Source: Deltaproteobacteria bacterium
GTDB taxonomy: Bacteria; Myxococcota_A; Polyangia; JAAYKL01
DNA: 50,399 nt
Assembly (NCBI GenBank): GCA_029565915.1
Contig: JAKQNG010000340.1
Coordinates: 1 to 50,399 of the forward strand
Direction: 5' to 3'
The notes under the pieces are model-generated. The model ran no database searches. It saw nothing but the letters and a program-made list of their open reading frames with translations, and had not been told where the DNA came from. The number at the start of each line of letters is the position of its first letter. Positions within the stretch are counted from its first letter, which is position 1. The translations under genes were made by a program, and so were the position numbers. Positions 1,699-50,399 of this stretch are shown in pieces.

Positions 1699-2841
1699 AT
1701 GAAAGTGACATTGTCCAGACAGTGTTTCTCTGCCGCCCTTGCCCGCACCAGCGGCATTGCCGATCGCAAGAGCTCGATGCAGATTCTTTCCAACGTGCTC
1801 GTTTCCACCGAGGGAGATGATCGCGTGCGATTTGCGGCCACGGATCTCAGCCTGTCCGCGGAAGGCCTGTTTCCGGCCCGTGTCGACAAGGATGGCGCTG
1901 TGACGCTGCCGGCCCGAACCCTGCACGACGTGGTGAAGAACATGCCCGACGGCCCCATCACCCTGAATGTGGACGGAGATGCGGTGGAAGTCACCGCCGG
2001 TCGAACGCGGTTCCGCCTGCTCAGCCTGCCCGCCGACGATTTTCCGACCATTCCGGATGCCGCGGAGGTGTCCTTCTTCGATGTGAAAGAAAAACACCTG
2101 GCCGGGATGATCGACCGCTGTGCCTACTCCATTTCCAGCGATGAAACACGACCCCACATCAATGGCGCCCTCTTTCAGGGAGATGGCAAGATTCTGCGGA
2201 TGGTCACCACGGATGGTCACCGGTTATCAAAGGTGGAATGCCGTGTGCAGGAAAGCGGGTTCTACAACTTCAACATGGTCATTCCCCAGAAGGGAATTCT
2301 GGAAATCCGGCGACTCCTCGGCGACTCGGAAGACACCGTGTCCATCGGTTCGCTCGACGGGTCGGTGTTCCTGAAGCGGAAGGTGGAGGTGGAGAAGGCG
2401 ACGGATGATCAGCCGGCAGTTACGGCGGATGTATGCCTCTCCTCCAAACTGATCGAAACGGAGTTTCCGCCCTACGATCAGGTGATTCCGAAACAACAGG
2501 AAAAGCGGATGATCGTTCCCCGCGGAAAGCTGCTCGATGCATTGAAGCGCGTGTCCATCGTTTCGTCGGATCGCACCCTCGGCGTCAAATTTGTTCTCTC
2601 CGAAGGCGCGGTGGAAATCGTAACGGACAATCCGTCCATCGGCGGAAGCTCTGATGTCGTGGATGTCAGCTATGACGGCGCGGATATGGAAATCGGTTTC
2701 AACGCCAAGTACTTTATCGATGTTCTTTCGGTGTTGAATGATGAAGAAGTAGCGGTGGAATTGTCGGGCGATCTGGATCCCGCTGTTGTCAAGGATACGG
2801 CCGGGGAATTCGTGGGCGTCGTCATGCCCATGCGCATCTAG
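1699..2841 (+). CDS. dnaN: DNA polymerase III beta subunit (sliding clamp)
   Basis: Ring-shaped processivity clamp of the replicative polymerase. The 380-residue length and overall sequence fit the family. The N-terminus MKVTLSRQCFSAALARTSGI, the central ISSDETRPHINGALFQ and the C-terminal end with GEFVGVVMPMRI (clamps usually end in VxPMRL/I) are diagnostic. The ATG is preceded by an AAAGGA ribosome-binding site. recF follows 9 bp after the stop, so the two are almost certainly one operon. Its position beside the DnaA-box cluster matches the common dnaN-recF origin neighbourhood, but dnaA and gyrB are missing from the immediate context. Confidence 0.98.
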   Translation: MKVTLSRQCFSAALARTSGIADRKSSMQILSNVLVSTEGDDRVRFAATDLSLSAEGLFPARVDKDGAVTLPARTLHDVVKNMPDGPITLNVDGDAVEVTAGRTRFRLLSLPADDFPTIPDAAEVSFFDVKEKHLAGMIDRCAYSISSDETRPHINGALFQGDGKILRMVTTDGHRLSKVECRVQESGFYNFNMVIPQKGILEIRRLLGDSEDTVSIGSLDGSVFLKRKVEVEKATDDQPAVTADVCLSSKLIETEFPPYDQVIPKQQEKRMIVPRGKLLDALKRVSIVSSDRTLGVKFVLSEGAVEIVTDNPSIGGSSDVVDVSYDGADMEIGFNAKYFIDVLSVLNDEEVAVELSGDLDPAVVKDTAGEFVGVVMPMRI

Positions 2842-2850
2842 GAAAACCGC

Positions 2851-3933
2851 TTGCTCTCCGTCCGGCTCGACGAACTCAGCATTGTCCACCTCCGCAACAT
2901 CCGTTCCGCACGAATCGAACCCTGTCCCCGGTTCAATGTCATTTCCGGCCGCAACGGCATGGGCAAATCGAACCTGATTGAAGGAATCTATCTGCTGGGC
3001 GCATTGCGATCCTTCCGCACGGCGGTCCGCGGTGAACTGTTGATGTACGGAGAAGAGCGGGCCAGGGTGACCGGCCTGTTCGGCGATGCGGCGGCGGGCA
3101 TCCGGTGTGAAATGACATGGACCCGGGGAGAACGCACGGTGACAGTGGACGGAAAGGATGTCACCGCGACGGGAATGCATTTTCAGATGCTGCCCATGGT
3201 GTTGTTCCACCCGGCGATGATGGACATCGTGCAGGGCGGACCGGAGATTCGACGGCGGTTTCTCGATCGGGCGATGTTTCAGGCAGACGGCCGATATCCG
3301 TCCATCTATCGGGCCTACCAGCGGGTACTGGCCAACCGGAACCGCCTGCTCCGGGACGGACGCAGCGACCAACGGGCCCTGGCCCCCTTCGATACACAGC
3401 TGGCGGATGCGGGCAGCCGGATGGTCTCCATGCGGGCGGAGTTCGTCGATCAGATGCAGCCGTTCTTTAAAGATGCGGCAGAACGGATCAGCGAGGGCGG
3501 CGTGGCCGAAATGACCTATCGACCGTCCATCCGGGGCGCGCAGGAAGAATATGCACGGGTGCTGGCGGACAAGGCGGGTGTTGACCGGGAGCGTCGATTT
3601 ACGACGGCGGGGCCCCACGCCGATGATCTCGTGTTTCTGATGGAAGGGCACGCGGCCCGGAGATATGCCTCCCAGGGACAGCAACGAACGCTGGTGCTGG
3701 CGGCAAAAATTGCCGAAACGCGGGCCCTGGCGGATTGCACGGGACGAATTCCCCTGCTGCTGTTTGACGACGTCTCCTCGGAGCTGGATCGAGACCGGAA
3801 TCGCCACCTGTTTGCATTCCTGCAGAGCATGGGTGGACAGGTATTCATCACGACCACCCACCGCGACTACATCCACATTGATGAACACCGCGCAGACTAC
3901 TCTGTCGTCGATGGCACCTTTATTCCCGGATGA
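2851..3933 (+). CDS. recF: DNA replication and repair protein RecF
   Basis: SMC-like ATPase that helps load RecA at single-strand gaps. Walker A is GRNGMGKS at residues 33-40, the ABC signature region is YASQGQQRTLVLAAKIAE, and Walker B is LLLFDDVSSELDRDRN, all in the expected order for a 360-residue RecF. The start is TTG, 9 bp after the dnaN stop; the ribosome-binding site AGGAAAA overlaps that stop, so translation is probably coupled to dnaN. The gene ends 12 bp before the convergent UPF0316 gene, leaving no room for an ordinary terminator hairpin. Confidence 0.96.
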   Translation: MLSVRLDELSIVHLRNIRSARIEPCPRFNVISGRNGMGKSNLIEGIYLLGALRSFRTAVRGELLMYGEERARVTGLFGDAAAGIRCEMTWTRGERTVTVDGKDVTATGMHFQMLPMVLFHPAMMDIVQGGPEIRRRFLDRAMFQADGRYPSIYRAYQRVLANRNRLLRDGRSDQRALAPFDTQLADAGSRMVSMRAEFVDQMQPFFKDAAERISEGGVAEMTYRPSIRGAQEEYARVLADKAGVDRERRFTTAGPHADDLVFLMEGHAARRYASQGQQRTLVLAAKIAETRALADCTGRIPLLLFDDVSSELDRDRNRHLFAFLQSMGGQVFITTTHRDYIHIDEHRADYSVVDGTFIPG

Positions 3934-3945
3934 AAGATGCGGATG

Positions 3946-4506
3946 CTATTTGAATTTGCGACCCTTGGTGCGCCAGCCGGTGCGAAGCAGGGATGCGTTG
4001 CGCTCAGCGGTCACCTGATCGACATTTTCGATGACGACAAAGATATGCTCGTCGATGCCGCGTGCTTTGTCGACCACGCTATCCACCCGCCGGCGGGGTA
4101 CTTTCATGAACAGGATGGAGATGGGACCGTCCTGCCCCTCCCCTTTCAGTTCCGTCAGGGCATAACCCTCGGCGCGCAGAGCCGATGACACATCGTCCGC
4201 CCGGCGGGTGAACAGCAGCACCGCCTTGTCGCCCACGGCCAGCCATTTTTCAATGGTGACGCCCAGCACTGTACCGGTGGCAAATCCGACGGCGTAGAAC
4301 ACCGCGTAGATAGGCTGTTCCCTGACGCCGTCAATCACCCGGGACACCACCCAGATCCAGATGAGCACCTCGAAGAAGCCCAGAACCCACGAAACGAGCC
4401 GGTTTCCCCGGATGATGAACAGGGTTCGCAAGGTTCCCAGCGACACGTCCACGATGCGCGCCGCGAAGATGAGAAAGCAGTTGAGAACGAGAATATCCGT
4501 CAGCAT
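3946..4506 (-). CDS. UPF0316-family membrane protein (DUF5698/DUF2179)
   Basis: Integral inner-membrane protein of unknown function. The N-terminal half carries about three hydrophobic helices (NCFLIFAARIVDVSLGTLRT, LGFFEVLIWIWVVSRVI, AVFYAVGFATGTVLGV). The C-terminal half is a soluble alpha/beta domain with GYALTELKGEGQDGPISILF and VPRRRVDSVVDKA, which is the UPF0316 layout. At 186 residues it is full length. An AAGGTG ribosome-binding site precedes the ATG. It lies just downstream of the M14 carboxypeptidase on the same strand, 26 bp apart, and may be cotranscribed. No substrate can be inferred. Confidence 0.85.
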   Translation of the reverse strand: MLTDILVLNCFLIFAARIVDVSLGTLRTLFIIRGNRLVSWVLGFFEVLIWIWVVSRVIDGVREQPIYAVFYAVGFATGTVLGVTIEKWLAVGDKAVLLFTRRADDVSSALRAEGYALTELKGEGQDGPISILFMKVPRRRVDSVVDKARGIDEHIFVVIENVDQVTAERNASLLRTGWRTKGRKFK

Positions 4507-4532
4507 GGACGCACCTTAATCCGGGAGCTGTT

Positions 4533-6224
4533 TCAGAACAAGACTTCGAAAAGGGAAGTTGTGAATTGCCGCTGAGACGTCGAACATCCGGAAATCGCGT
4601 GGGCCGTGGATGACGGGTCGGCCGAATCCGGGGTGTCCGTGTCCCCGGTGCCGCTGTCCGTGTCCGGATCGCCATCTGAAAGACAAGATCCCGTCACCTC
4701 CACGGCATCCACGTCGTAGCCGCCGTCTGTGACACCGAAGAACACCGCGCCGTCATCCACGAGTCGCACAAATTGCACAGCCCTCGGAAACGCCTGCACA
4801 TCCACCTCCAGCGTTCCTGCCCCTTTGGCGACTTCCATGAACGGTCCGTCCTGATGCGCGGCGACAAATACGCGCACCTGATCACTGCTGCCCGTACCGC
4901 TCACCACGGTCAGGTCGGCGCCGTCCCCATCGTCCAGGGCCTCGCCCAGATCGAGCGTGAGGCTGCCGCCGCCCAGGGAGTAGTACCAGTCGTCCCGCCG
5001 GCCCAGGGCATCGGATGGCAGCGTGGTGTTGTCGTAGCCATTCGTTGCATACCAGTGGTTCGTCAGGTCCCGCGGCTGGGTCATTGCATTCACCCGGAAG
5101 GCGGACCGGCAGTCGTCGGGAGTCAGGGCGAAATCCACCGTGACGGTTCCACCGGACGGAACCACCACGTTATCCACTGTGAGGGCCGCATACCCGTTTG
5201 CCCATGCGGTGATCTCGTAAGTTCCCTCCAGCAGCATGCGGTGATAGTCCCCGCCGTCGGGATCCGTGAACACAGGTTCCCCTTCGGGCTCCACGGTAAT
5301 CATGGCGGGCAGCGGTTGTCCGGTTTCTGCGTCCGTGACCGTTCCTTCGACGCCCCGCAGGGCCCATTCGAAGAACGCGACAACGCCCGGCCCGTGAACG
5401 TCCCATTGCAGCTCCGCATCGGACTGCAGTTCAATGGTCCAGTCGAAGGTGCCCGCCGTGCCCAGGGACCAGTCGTCGATGTCCCCCGAAATCTGATACC
5501 AGTCCCAGCCGAACACCACCTGATAATCGCTTGCGCCCGCGTAGTCGGCGCCAATGGCGGCAATCAGTTCTTCGTCGCGGGGGTGGAAGGGCGTCCAGTT
5601 CCAGGGGCCGTTCACGTAGTCGGCGCGGGTGTGGTAGCTGAGCCCCAGCACAAAGGCGCGGGACTGGCTCAGGTCGCGCAGTGCACGGGTTTCCGGCTCC
5701 GAAAAGGGAGAAGAACCGTGGTCCGGAACCGGCGTCCACGCGTAGCCGAAGTTGCGGTTCAGATCGATTCCGGAGGCGTTCAACCGCTCTGCGGGCACCC
5801 GGTCATGCCCGTCGGGATTGACGAGGGGCACGAAGACGAACTGGAGGTGTTCCACCAGCCGGCGGCTCATCGGATCGACAGCCGCGCCGTCCAGCAACGA
5901 CGCGATGATCTGCAGCACCATTTCCGTGGCCAGGCACTCGTTTCCATGAATGCCGCCCACCACGCGGACTTCCGGTTTCGCGGCATCCTGCGCCGGATCG
6001 GTTGACACGAAAAGGGCGTGGATGTCCGCGCCCGCAACGGATTGACCGATGATCTCCCGACGCGCCAGATGGGGAAACGATGTCTCATATCCGGCAAGCC
6101 GCGCATCGATATCCTCGTTGTTGCCGTATTCTTCGCACGAAGACAGGGAGGCCGCCGCGCCGCGGCCCAGGAGCAGCACGATGATGGCGCACCGGGCGAT
6201 GTCAGCCCAGCGTGACCTGCACAT
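4533..6224 (-). CDS. Secreted M14-family zinc carboxypeptidase with regulatory-like domain
   Basis: Predicted exported metallocarboxypeptidase. With the start at the internal ATG (6224), an N-terminal signal peptide ([14 protein letters not shown]) appears; the longer track ORF would overlap the GH94 gene by 80 bp instead of 23. The M14 fold shows the zinc motif GIHGNE near residue 93, a [10 protein letters not shown] segment, a histidine in LSYHTRADY, and the catalytic-type glutamate in WTIELQ. A carboxypeptidase-regulatory-like domain follows ([17 protein letters not shown], then [13 protein letters not shown]), then a discoidin-like region and a Thr/Asp/Ser-rich tail. The tail ends without a membrane anchor. 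The start is uncertain because no clear ribosome-binding site is seen. Confidence 0.85.
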
Positions 6225-8637
6225 GGTGGGATTTGCCGTCGCCGAACACGGGGAGGATGTTGCCGTCGATTTTTTTACCATCCACCACGGCTTCCTTGAC
6301 GCCCCGGCACACGTGGGAGGGATTCTTCACCTCGATGACATAGGTGGCGCCCCGGAATTTCCGGGTGATTGTGTACCCGTCCCAGGCGGCGGGAATGCAC
6401 GGATCCACCTTCAGGCCGTGGTAGTCGGGCTGGATGCCCAGGATGTGGTTGGCAATGGCAATGAAGTTCCACGCGGCGGTGCCCGTGAGCCAGGAGTTCT
6501 TCGCTTCGCCGGGCCGGAAGGCATCCTTGCCCGCGATCATCTGGGCGTACACATACGGCTCCACCGTGTGCAGCTCGCTGCGATCCTCGGTGTAGGCGGG
6601 GGCGATTTTCGCATAGTACTCAAACGCCCGATCACCGCGGCCGATCACCGTTTCGCCGATCATGATCCACGGATTGTTGTGGCAGAAGATGCCCGCGTTT
6701 TCCTTGTATCCGGGTGGATAGGTGGAAATTTCGCCATAGCGGATTTCGTATTTCGTGAACGCCGGATGGTTGAGCACGATGCCGTGTTCGCAGTCCAGGT
6801 ATTTCTTGACGGCGTCGAGGGCCTGCCGTGCCCTGCCATCTTCTGCGCCGATGCCCGCCATGGTGCAGAATCCCTGGGATTCGATGAAGATTTTTCCTTC
6901 TTCGTTATCCTTGCTGCCCACCTTGTCGCCGTAGAAATCGTAGGCCCGCAGGAACCACTCGCCGTCCCAGCCGTGAGACAGAATGGCCTGCTCCATTTTC
7001 GCAATGTGGGACAGGGCGGTTTTTGCCTCGTCGGCAAAACCCTTCAAATCGCAGATCTCGGCAAACTGCCGACCGTAGATGACAAACATGCCCGCGATCA
7101 TCAGGCTTTCGGCGGTGCGCCCTTCCTGATTGGACGTGGTCTGGAAGGGTTCGTCGGGATTGTTGGAAAAACAGTTCAGGTTGAGGCAGTCGTTCCAGTC
7201 CGCGCGGCCGATGAGAGGCAGGCCGTGGGGCCCCAGGTTGTTCACCACGTGGTAGAACGAGCGCCGCAGGTGGTCGAACAGGGGTTTCGCCTTTGCCACG
7301 TCGTTGTCGTAGGGCACCATCGCATCGAGGATGGACATGTCGCCCGTTTCCTTGATGTAGGCCGCCGTGGAACACACCAGCCACATGGGATCGTCGTTGA
7401 AGTTGCCGCCGATCTCGTTGTTGCCCTTCTTGGTGAGGGGCTGGTACTGGTGATAAGCGCCGCCGTCCTCCAGCTGGGTGGCCGCCAGATCCATGATGCG
7501 CTCCCGGCACCGATCGGGCACCTGGTGAACAAATCCGATGATGTCCTGGTTGGAATCGCGGAATCCCATGCCGCGGCCGATGCCGGATTCGAAATAGGAG
7601 GCGCTGCGGGACAGGTTGAAGGTCACCATGCACTGGTACTGGTTCCAGATGTTCACCATCCTTGAGAGCTTTTCGTCCGGGTGGGTGAGCTGGTAGCGGC
7701 CGAGCACGTCGTCCCAGTAGGCCTGCAGCTCCGCAAAGGCCCGGTCCACGGCGGCGCCGTCCTTGAAGCGATCGATCATGGCGCGGGCGGGGGCCTTGTT
7801 GATGACGCCTTCGGAGGCCCACTTCTGATCCTGGGGGTTTTCCGCATAGCCCAGCACGAAGATGAATTCCTCCGACGCGCCCGGGGCGAGCCGGATGTCC
7901 AGGAAATGGCTGGCGATGGGGCTCCAGCCGTGGGCCACGTGGTTGCCCGGTTTGCCCTGTTCCACCATGAGCGGCTCGTGGAAGCCCCGGTAGTCACCCA
8001 GAAACGCCCGGCGATCCGTTTCGAAGCCGTCGATGGGGCGGTTGCACGAAAAGAACGAAAAGTGATTGCGGCGCTCCCGGTATTCCGTGCGGTGGTAAAT
8101 GACGCCGTCTTCCACTTCCACTTCGCCCGTGTTCAGGTTGCGCTGGAAGTTCGTCATGTCGTCGAGGGCGTTCCACATGCAGAACTCGACAAACGAAAAT
8201 ACCTTCAGGTTGACCGGGGCGTCCGAGCGGTTGGTCAGGGTGAGGCGGGTGACTTCTCCTTCGAATTTCTGCGGAACAAAGGTGAGCACCTCCGCCTGCA
8301 CGCCGTTCTTCGACGAAACGAACCGGGTGTAGCCCATGCCGTGACGGCATTCATAGCTGTCCAGATCGGTTTTTACGGGCATCCAGGTGGGCGTCCAGAT
8401 GTCGCGGCCGTCGTTGATGTAGAAATACTTTCCCGATGCGTCCTGGGGCACCGTGTTGTAGCGGTAGCGGGTCAGCCGGCGCAGGCGGGCGTCCCGGTAG
8501 AAGCTGTAGCCGCCCCCCAGGCTGGAGATGATGGAAAAGAAATTTCCCGTTCCCAGATAGTTGATCCACGGAAACGGGGTCCGGGGGTTGGTGATCACAT
8601 ACTCGCGTCCGGTGTCGTTAAAATGGCCGTATTTCAT
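6202..8637 (-). CDS. GH94 glycoside phosphorylase, cellobiose phosphorylase-like
   Basis: Cytoplasmic enzyme expected to split a beta-linked disaccharide with phosphate, giving glucose 1-phosphate and a free sugar. The 811-residue length and the N-terminal [20 protein letters not shown], including [16 protein letters not shown], match cellobiose phosphorylases. The conserved [10 protein letters not shown] around residue 480 holds the expected general acid aspartate. Other family segments are [20 protein letters not shown] and [14 protein letters not shown] strong GGAGGAG ribosome-binding site precedes the ATG. There is no signal peptide and no nearby transporter or cellulase, so its sugar supply is not evident. 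Cellobiose versus another disaccharide cannot be decided from this context. Confidence 0.9.
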
Positions 8638-48734: not shown

Positions 48735-48953
48735 AAGGCTCATTGTGCCCGTCCCTATCTCGGAACAGATCGGCCTTGATTGGATTATTTGCATTGAGTG
48801 CCCGTGCCGAATCCCGGACATGACCGTGGAGCATCCACCCCGGGAACAGGATGTCCCCGGACTGCCGGTTGGAGAATACCATGTCCACTCATGCGTCTTG
48901 CATGTCCACCCGGTTTCGCCGTGAACCAATTCGATCATCATGTCTGTTTTCAT
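48735..48953 (-). pseudogene. Small Cys-rich protein copy 2, frameshifted by a 58-bp deletion
   Basis: The N-terminal part (ELVHGETGWTCKTHEWTW, then SCSRGGCSTVM) matches copy 1, but after the last CATG the reading frame changes. The copy 1-like continuation (GHVRDSARALNANNPIKADLF) appears in a different frame. Aligning the two copies shows a 58-bp segment of copy 1 missing here, between two CATG sequences. 58 is not a multiple of 3, so the frame is lost. The original frame runs on to 48678 as an unrelated tail. The upstream GTGGTAGAATC is kept in both copies. Confidence 0.8.
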
Positions 48954-48987
48954 GAAGACGATTCTACCACGACAGAATCAGGAAGAA

Positions 48988-50007
48988 CTATTCGAAGATC
49001 GTCCGGACAGGCCGGAAACCGGTGTCGTAACGAATCCCGTATGGGTAGAAACCATATTGCCAGGTTGGGTTTACTATACAGCCCGTCGACATGAACTTCC
49101 CCCCTCGCAGATCCTTGTATCTTCCGGTGAGCGGTCCAATGGGATCAGTCATCGATTGATCCGGGTTCTCGTAGTCCAGTGGCTGTCCATCTGCAAAGTA
49201 GTCTGTCCATTCGTAGACATTCCCCAACGTGTCATACAAGCCCCACGGATTCGGCAGTTTCTGCGCGACTGGGTGCAGTTCATCGCCGGAATTGAAACAA
49301 TACCAGGCAATGTCGTTGAGAGACGGCTGCTCGCTGCAATGTCCGATCTGTTCGCCGATGAGATCACCACCGTAGGTACGGGTTTCCGTCACGTTGGCTT
49401 TCGCGGCATATTCCCACTCCGCTGTCGTTGGCAGTCGATAACCCGGACAGGCATACCAGTCCTCATACTTGTGAATCTCCCCGGAACAGTTGAAATTGTA
49501 ATCCGGATTCCAGGAGCCTTGTTCATCGCTTTGTTCGAGTCCGTCGGGATAGCCGACGCCTACATCGTTTCTACATGATGAGAAGTCGTAACAGGTCTCC
49601 AGTCCTTCAAGAAGAGAGAGCTTGTTGCACCAGACCGCAGCCTCATAGAAATTGATGTATGTGATCGGTTTATCCGCCCCGATGTTTTTTGATGGGTTCG
49701 GGAACGCCAACGCTTCCCACTGAGCCTGTGTAACTTCCGTAGATGCGATGAAGAAAGAACGGGTCAACGTGACTGGAACCTGCTTTTCATTTCCTCCCCT
49801 ACAAGGATACTCGGGGTCGGAACCAAAAATATATGAACCGTGTTCAATTTGAATCCATTCGATCACTGGACTGGTTTCTCTTCCAGAAAGCGCATCATAT
49901 GGTTGATGAGAGTTTTCGGACCCATCTGCTTTGTCGCATGCACTGCAGGCGACTGTAATTGCCGTAAGAAAAAACAATCCTATTGAGGGAAAGGTGTACT
50001 GTTCCAT
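48988..50007 (-). CDS. Formylglycine-generating-enzyme-like (SUMF1) lipoprotein, copy 2
   Basis: A 339-residue predicted lipoprotein (signal GLFFLTAITVACSAC). The FGE/SUMF1 fold is clear: IASTEVTQAQWEAL, GYRLPTTAEWEYAAKAN, WGLYDTLGNVYEWTDYF, DLRGGKF, and GFRPVRTIFE at the C-terminus. The paired active-site cysteines of true FGE are not visible: RGGKFMSTGC carries a single Cys and GFRCA is GFRPV. So it is probably not a sulfatase activator. It contains other cysteines that could form disulfides. The start has a GAGGA site overlapping the stop of small copy 1, indicating translational coupling. Confidence 0.82.
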   Translation of the reverse strand: MEQYTFPSIGLFFLTAITVACSACDKADGSENSHQPYDALSGRETSPVIEWIQIEHGSYIFGSDPEYPCRGGNEKQVPVTLTRSFFIASTEVTQAQWEALAFPNPSKNIGADKPITYINFYEAAVWCNKLSLLEGLETCYDFSSCRNDVGVGYPDGLEQSDEQGSWNPDYNFNCSGEIHKYEDWYACPGYRLPTTAEWEYAAKANVTETRTYGGDLIGEQIGHCSEQPSLNDIAWYCFNSGDELHPVAQKLPNPWGLYDTLGNVYEWTDYFADGQPLDYENPDQSMTDPIGPLTGRYKDLRGGKFMSTGCIVNPTWQYGFYPYGIRYDTGFRPVRTIFE

Positions 50008-50017
50008 AATGCTATCC

Positions 50018-50299
50018 TCAGTAGGTGTAGGTTACTTTTGCATTGGTTCCCATGGTGCGGAACAGCAAAGCTTTATTGATTCCATAACTTTCTACCGAAT
50101 CCCGGACATGGCTCCATCTGCTGCCAATGCGGTATTCCTTAGCTGCGCGTTGTTCGTCGGGAACCATGACCGTGCCGCATCCACCCCAGGAACAGGATGA
50201 TTCCAGGTGTTTCGTCGGAGAGACATACCGCCATGAGTGGGTCTCGCAGGTCCAGCCGACTTCGGCACAAACCGATTTGAATTCACGATGTGTTTTCAT
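50018..50299 (-). CDS. Small Cys-rich protein, copy 1
   Basis: A 93-residue protein, MKTHREFKSVCAEVGWTCET, then HSWRYVSPTKHLESSCSWGG and CGTVMVP, ending TNAKVTYTY. Four cysteines plus His and Trp (WTCxTHxW and SCSxGGC) suggest a small metal-binding or disulfide-stabilised fold. There is no signal peptide. It follows a FGE-like gene end by about 35 bp and precedes the next FGE-like start by 10 bp. It is homologous to copy 2 (48735-48953). The family is not recognised. Confidence 0.7.
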   Translation of the reverse strand: MKTHREFKSVCAEVGWTCETHSWRYVSPTKHLESSCSWGGCGTVMVPDEQRAAKEYRIGSRWSHVRDSVESYGINKALLFRTMGTNAKVTYTY

Positions 50300-50334
50300 G
50301 AACCGGATTCTACCACAGCCGTGGTCAGGAAGAA

Positions 50335-50399
50335 CTACTCGAAGATTGTCCGGACAGGACGGAACCCGGTGTCGTAACGGCGGGTATAGGGATTGTCAG
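50335..50399 (-). CDS. FGE-like lipoprotein copy 1 (partial, only C-terminus in window)
   Basis: The minus strand encodes DNPYTRRYDTGFRPVRTIFE and a TAG stop, nearly the same as the end of copy 2 (IRYDTGFRPVRTIFE). The rest lies beyond the right edge. Together with the small-protein copies, this shows the tandem unit FGE-like plus small Cys-rich protein repeats at least twice and probably continues outside. Confidence 0.85.
   Translation of the reverse strand, partial: DNPYTRRYDTGFRPVRTIFE

Follow-up and report, generated by a model that had tools for sequence, protein, structure and literature searches.

Here, we find by sequence comparison that the small, cysteine-rich open reading frame (ORF) alternating with FGE-like lipoprotein genes at the right end of the window (the whole stretch of DNA analysed, 50,399 nt) is the C-terminal ~85–90 aa of an exported HExGH (gluzincin-like) protein of ~430–500 aa. 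The small ORF is a gene fragment, neither a new partner family nor spacer. It probably arose by tandem duplication, as a 5′-truncated copy of that protein's gene end (3′), and would serve mainly as the leader of the next FGE gene. The sequence-only reading of this DNA had cast the small ORF as a cytosolic, Cys-rich protein paired with the lipoprotein in an unrecognised system. That view falls, as the homologues found outside the locus are C-termini of ~500-aa exported HExGH proteins; the linkage of the two genes stands, and the stand-alone small partner does not. A supposed small-protein partner family is removed, and a traceable origin takes its place. The parent operon, with a first gene that has no Pfam or NCBIfam match, merits more attention than the small protein.

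The array and the source of its small ORF

The window comprises an entire contig (C213) of a 4.14-Mb assembly in 343 contigs, and the array runs off the contig end. On the minus strand, the order is FGE-like gene, small ORF, FGE-like gene, small ORF (Table 1). The gaps from FGE stop to small-ORF ATG measure 35 nt behind copy 0 and 34 nt behind copy 1, and 10 nt separate the stop of small 1 from the start of FGE copy 1. Thus, the tandem repetition with conserved spacing and the tight 10-bp junction described earlier are real, as are the conserved upstream sequence (GTGGTAGAATC, 5′ of both small ORFs) and the WTCxTHxW and SCSxGGC motifs, which occur in both small copies. The second unit calls for a correction. 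Small 1 is intact; small 2, by comparison, lacks 58 nt between CATG repeats, which shifts the frame and leaves a homologous remainder in another frame, and hence it is not an intact gene. Behind small 2 lies an ABC-F-type ATPase gene instead of another FGE.

Table 1. Features of the window array (contig C213) and of the C82 array in the same genome
Contig	Feature	Position	Strand	Remarks
C213	FGE-like gene copy 0, 3′ end	50335..50399	-	last ~20 codons, cut by contig end; ends ...DTGFRPVRTIFE and stop
C213	GTGGTAGAATC, with extended -10-like element (TGGTAGAAT)	50306..50316	-	few nt 5′ of small 1 ATG
C213	small 1, intact ORF, 93 aa	50018..50299	-	homologous to C-terminal ~85 aa of exported HExGH protein; probable truncated duplicate
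C213	FGE-like / C-type-lectin-fold lipoprotein copy 1, 339 aa	48988..50007	-	catalytic Cys absent; C-terminal segment variable
C213	second GTGGTAGAATC element	48960..48970	-	few nt 5′ of small 2 ATG
C213	small 2, readable part, 46 aa	48816..48953	-	52% identity to small 1
C213	small 2, out-of-frame remainder (VRDS...LFR)	48740..48815 (end approximate)	-	after 58-nt deletion; terminal unit broken, no FGE behind
C82	full protease-like gene	1079-2581
C82	FGE, first	2574-3656
C82	tail, first	3686-4021
C82	FGE, second	4021-5184
C82	tail, second	5214-5555
C82	FGE, third	5545-6666
C82	FGE4	about 6698-7831		tail-less

Neither small 1 nor small 2 has a match in Pfam or NCBIfam. Small 1 does align with the C-terminal end of an exported protein of 502 aa from G013, a related genome of the same family (E 1.1e-7). 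This genome encodes homologues of 502 and 510 aa, both with the small-ORF-like stretch at the C-terminus, a HETGH or HELGH motif, and a hydrophobic N-terminus that we read as a signal peptide; each of their genes has an FGE-like gene directly downstream. A search with a profile of the tail, in which small 1 itself is a row, recovers the same C-terminal region. The small-ORF fragments start at about residue 384 of the parent or later, and the HExGH motif lies at residue 241 of 501. Weak tail matches in three other genomes (G001, G012 and G026; E 0.02–0.06) were dropped because their gene contexts are unrelated.

Used as query of the source genome, the G013 protein finds full or cut protease-like genes on contigs C82 and C13. 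The gene order on C82 (Table 1), where the initial ~80 nt of one more FGE follow FGE4, indicates that each extra unit holds a complete FGE gene and, from the protease-like gene, the 3′ end only. On C13, the protease-like gene breaks off where the contig ends, and the full-length gene belonging to the window array is absent from the assembly, C213 ending inside FGE copy 0; no end overlaps joining C213, C74 and C13 were found. Contig C74 carries a sister array, with a small-ORF copy (81% identity over 74 aa), an FGE gene, and then a second copy with an in-frame TAG. It also holds the third GTGGTAGAATC; beyond this one and the two in the window, the 4.1-Mb assembly has no others. A second species, G011, shows a tail, an FGE gene, a 34-codon tail and an FGE start (contig C160). 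The tails span 111–113 codons on C82, 93 in the window and 34 in G011, with differing breakpoints. On contig C122 (L059:2849-3230, minus strand), a short predicted lipoprotein combines a signal peptide with the tail, lacks the HExGH domain, and is coupled to an FGE-like gene by TGATG. Because this tail sits in a predicted lipoprotein, a tail can be exported without the protease domain. Stand-alone tails occur in 2 of the 14 family genomes searched.

The parent operon

Within the class, a four-parent profile matched 54 of 318 genomes; in a wider sample of the phylum, a 14-sequence profile matched 30 of 379. An FGE ORF lies directly downstream of the protease-like gene at 21 of the 30 class loci with flanks (one per genome). 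In the phylum sample, FGE is found behind all eight closest loci (E below 1e-50) and behind none of four more distant loci examined. At 27 of 32 junctions, a possible FGE start, taken as the nearest start codon, is no more than 30 nt away from the stop of the preceding gene. No description of the protease–FGE gene pair was found in the open-access literature, and the operon is apparently undescribed. It pairs an HExGH protein that has no Pfam or NCBIfam match with a pseudo-FGE lipoprotein across much of one phylum.

The 14 parents compared agree without exception in the HExGH motif (H241, E242, G244, H245), a Glu in EGxAHF (E298), four Cys and a DW pair. The HExxH motif of a gluzincin metallopeptidase is thus present, with the downstream Glu as putative third ligand. 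The parents also share the C-terminal motif GxxWxxLxxxVxxxY...K..F...AGVxY, which is kept with and without the WTC insert; among the 14 compared, the WTC...W part is an insert in some only. Searches of the parent HExGH protein against Pfam, NCBIfam and the PDB gave no significant family match, and a structure model made from two sequences only has a pLDDT of 29.6. Our best guess is that the lectin-like lipoprotein may receive, hold or restrain the exported peptidase at the cell surface. We note separately that on contig C263 of G013 (L137:3272-3902), a protease-like gene is split in two frames, with no adjoining FGE, and has apparently decayed.

Retention of the tails

Tails and tail-less FGE genes alike carry GTGGTANNNT 6–7 nt 5′ of the ATG; the tail-less genes of the source genome (C82 FGE4, C35b and C43) start directly behind it. 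In 460 kb sampled, the element occurs 20 times, ten of them 6–7 nt before an ATG, and eight of these ten belong to the protease-tail/FGE family. Genome-wide, the pattern GTGGTATNNTN{2,20}ATG has 19 matches, versus 2 for the reversed pattern. The sequences TGGTAGAAT and TGGTATTCT resemble an extended -10 element, and their spacing would put the transcription start at the ATG. The element is absent from the G011 array. Derivation of the GTGGTA element from protease codons (NFFWGLW) was considered and found unsupported, as shuffle tests gave inconsistent P values. Elsewhere, two unrelated ORFs (L105:2163 and L111:6630), of which one encodes a predicted lipoprotein, have GTGGTANNNT 6–7 nt 5′ of their ATG, a hint that this type of leaderless promoter may be more widespread.

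Had the small ORF been spacer, as the sequence-only reading allowed, neither homologues nor purifying selection would be expected. Homologues exist, and pairwise dN/dS between tails is 0.33–0.54 (bootstrap upper limits 0.59–0.87); the small ORF is thus a piece of a gene and not spacer. The dN/dS values could mean that the tail protein itself is useful, and part of the tail divergence may predate truncation. The fate of the tails follows the presence of an FGE gene. In all five clear cases with FGE behind (two on C82, small 1, C122 and G011), the tail is intact; in both cases with none (small 2 and the second C74 copy), it is broken (Fisher P 0.048). The simplest joint reading is that the tail is retained because the next FGE starts through it.

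These observations suggest the following history. In the phylum, an exported metalloprotease-like gene and an FGE-like lipoprotein gene make up a tight two-gene operon. In the source genome, a segment comprising the protease 3′ end and the FGE gene appears to have been duplicated head to tail. Most extra FGE genes there accordingly have a tail in front, its ATG 6–7 nt after GTGGTANNNT and its end within ~10 nt of the FGE start. The tails would then be kept mainly as a transcription start and a translation-coupling leader of the next FGE.

It has also to be considered that the tail is the FGE-binding module of the protease-like protein, retained alone as a chaperone or partner for each FGE copy. 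The purifying selection on tails fits this, as do the C-terminal motif kept with and without the WTC insert, the small lipoprotein of C122 that bears the tail, and the survival of tails before FGE and their breakage elsewhere. However, no signal peptide is visible in the tails of the window, C82 and G011, and a tail protein of this kind should not meet an exported lipoprotein. Some FGE genes of the same genome do without tails, tail length ranges from 34 to 113 codons with shifting breakpoints, and few family genomes have stand-alone tails at all. We regard a retained partner module as unlikely, and favor the tail as a leader for the gene behind it.

FGE variation and comparison with known systems

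FGE copy 1 matches PF03781 well above the cut-off (E 3.4e-29; 102.7 bits versus 23.3). The missing catalytic Cys noted earlier is confirmed: the RGGSYLC of formylglycine-generating enzyme (FGE; 6muj) aligns with RGGKFMS in the window protein, Ser taking the place of the first Cys of the catalytic pair, and none of nine FGE copies of the source genome has Cys at this place. Among solved structures, and by sequence only, the best match is TvpA (2y3c, E 7.3e-23), a variable protein of a diversity-generating retroelement (DGR); FGE and PorK structures also match by sequence. A structure model of the FGE-like protein, from three sequences only, has a pLDDT of 29.1. The source genome has 31 PF03781 matches, and because many lie at contig ends, FGE copy number is probably underestimated.

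Pairs of FGE copies are ~97% identical in nucleotide sequence over the core and ~58–60% identical over the ~50 aa that lead up to GFRPVRTIFE. Paralogues on C82, C43, C35 and C74 and in the window (48988-50007) show these near-identical cores and divergent C-terminal segments. A silent-codon test modelled on GENECONV was applied to eleven pairs. Four of them, each with both copies in one genome, show tracts of conversion (P 0.0016, 0.0002, 0.0002 and 0.003); in three pairs involving G013, tracts were not significant. The FGE copies may bind ligands at the cell surface or in the periplasm. Gene conversion would hold their cores uniform and leave the C-terminal binding segment to vary, giving a family of related binders, not repeated two-protein units. 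A more speculative extension, which we consider quite unlikely, is that the locus is an expressed cassette array that varies a lectin-like surface receptor with no retroelement. Tail-plus-FGE units would exchange by gene conversion and recombine behind the full-length protease, with tail and binding face co-varying as protease–inhibitor or protease–receptor recognition.

Recombination among FGE copies would also suit an orphan effector/immunity-like array, in which the protease is the effector, the FGE-like protein its inhibitor, and displaced tail-plus-FGE units widen immunity and can recombine onto the full gene, as in CDI. The architecture resembles that of orphan cdiA-CT/cdiI arrays, where variable-length fragments, often lacking the usual signals for a start, stand in front of partner genes that are intact (PMC3150448). 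The CDI fragment keeps its toxin domain, however, whereas the tails here lack the HExGH domain, and no delivery module is seen; an effector/immunity role is therefore distinctly improbable. Assembly of repeated genes in a fragmented genome could in principle create such arrays, given 343 contigs, 4.9% contamination and several arrays that end at contig ends. Yet C82 reads through seven genes in coherent frames, the separate genome G011 shows the same architecture, and the junctions are not the same from array to array, as those of a single chimera would be, which makes an artefact very improbable.

Least credible is that the FGE-like proteins are DGR targets with the conserved 3′ flank as homing signal: the match to TvpA and the divergent C-terminal segments are as such a system would have them, but no template repeat was found in the assembly (about 90% complete), the sole reverse transcriptase is DRT/UG-like and on another contig, and silent C/T/G changes at conserved residues of the variable segment are not expected of adenine mutagenesis. 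DGR targeting was rejected, as neither a template repeat nor a DGR reverse transcriptase nor a bias towards adenines is seen. In the template search, the FGE 3′-end pattern, at up to 3 mismatches, matched FGE genes only, plus one 3-mismatch match on C248. The reverse transcriptase, the only one found in the genome (L061, in the region C225:6689-7078; Drt9 E 5e-21), adjoins a multi-pass membrane protein gene and is possibly anti-phage.

The array we describe shares features with several known systems. Like gluzincin-type exported metallopeptidases, the parent has HExGH, a downstream Glu and, judging by its hydrophobic N-terminus, a signal peptide; unlike them, its N- and C-terminal regions resemble no known families. 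As in CDI/Rhs orphan CT–immunity arrays, 3′ fragments of an exported-protein gene are arrayed, each with an intact partner gene behind; here, however, the presumed catalytic domain is missing from the tail, and no delivery apparatus is seen. The FGE copies join other PF03781 proteins, including PorK/GldK and the TvpA type, in their above-cut-off match and lipoprotein-like start, and differ in that the window copies lack the catalytic Cys and stand in tandem behind protease-like tails; no T9SS or DGR context was seen around the FGE-like genes. In the DGR variable proteins TvpA and TaqVP, an FGE subtype of the C-type lectin fold varies over its C-terminal ~45 aa (PMC6328139). The FGE copies have a C-type-lectin/FGE-type fold by sequence and likewise vary at the C-terminus; their variation, in contrast, goes with gene conversion between paralogues and is not adenine-specific. 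A lectin-fold family thus appears to vary its C-terminal segment by exchange among paralogues, with the fold and the site of variation of DGR targets and no DGR.
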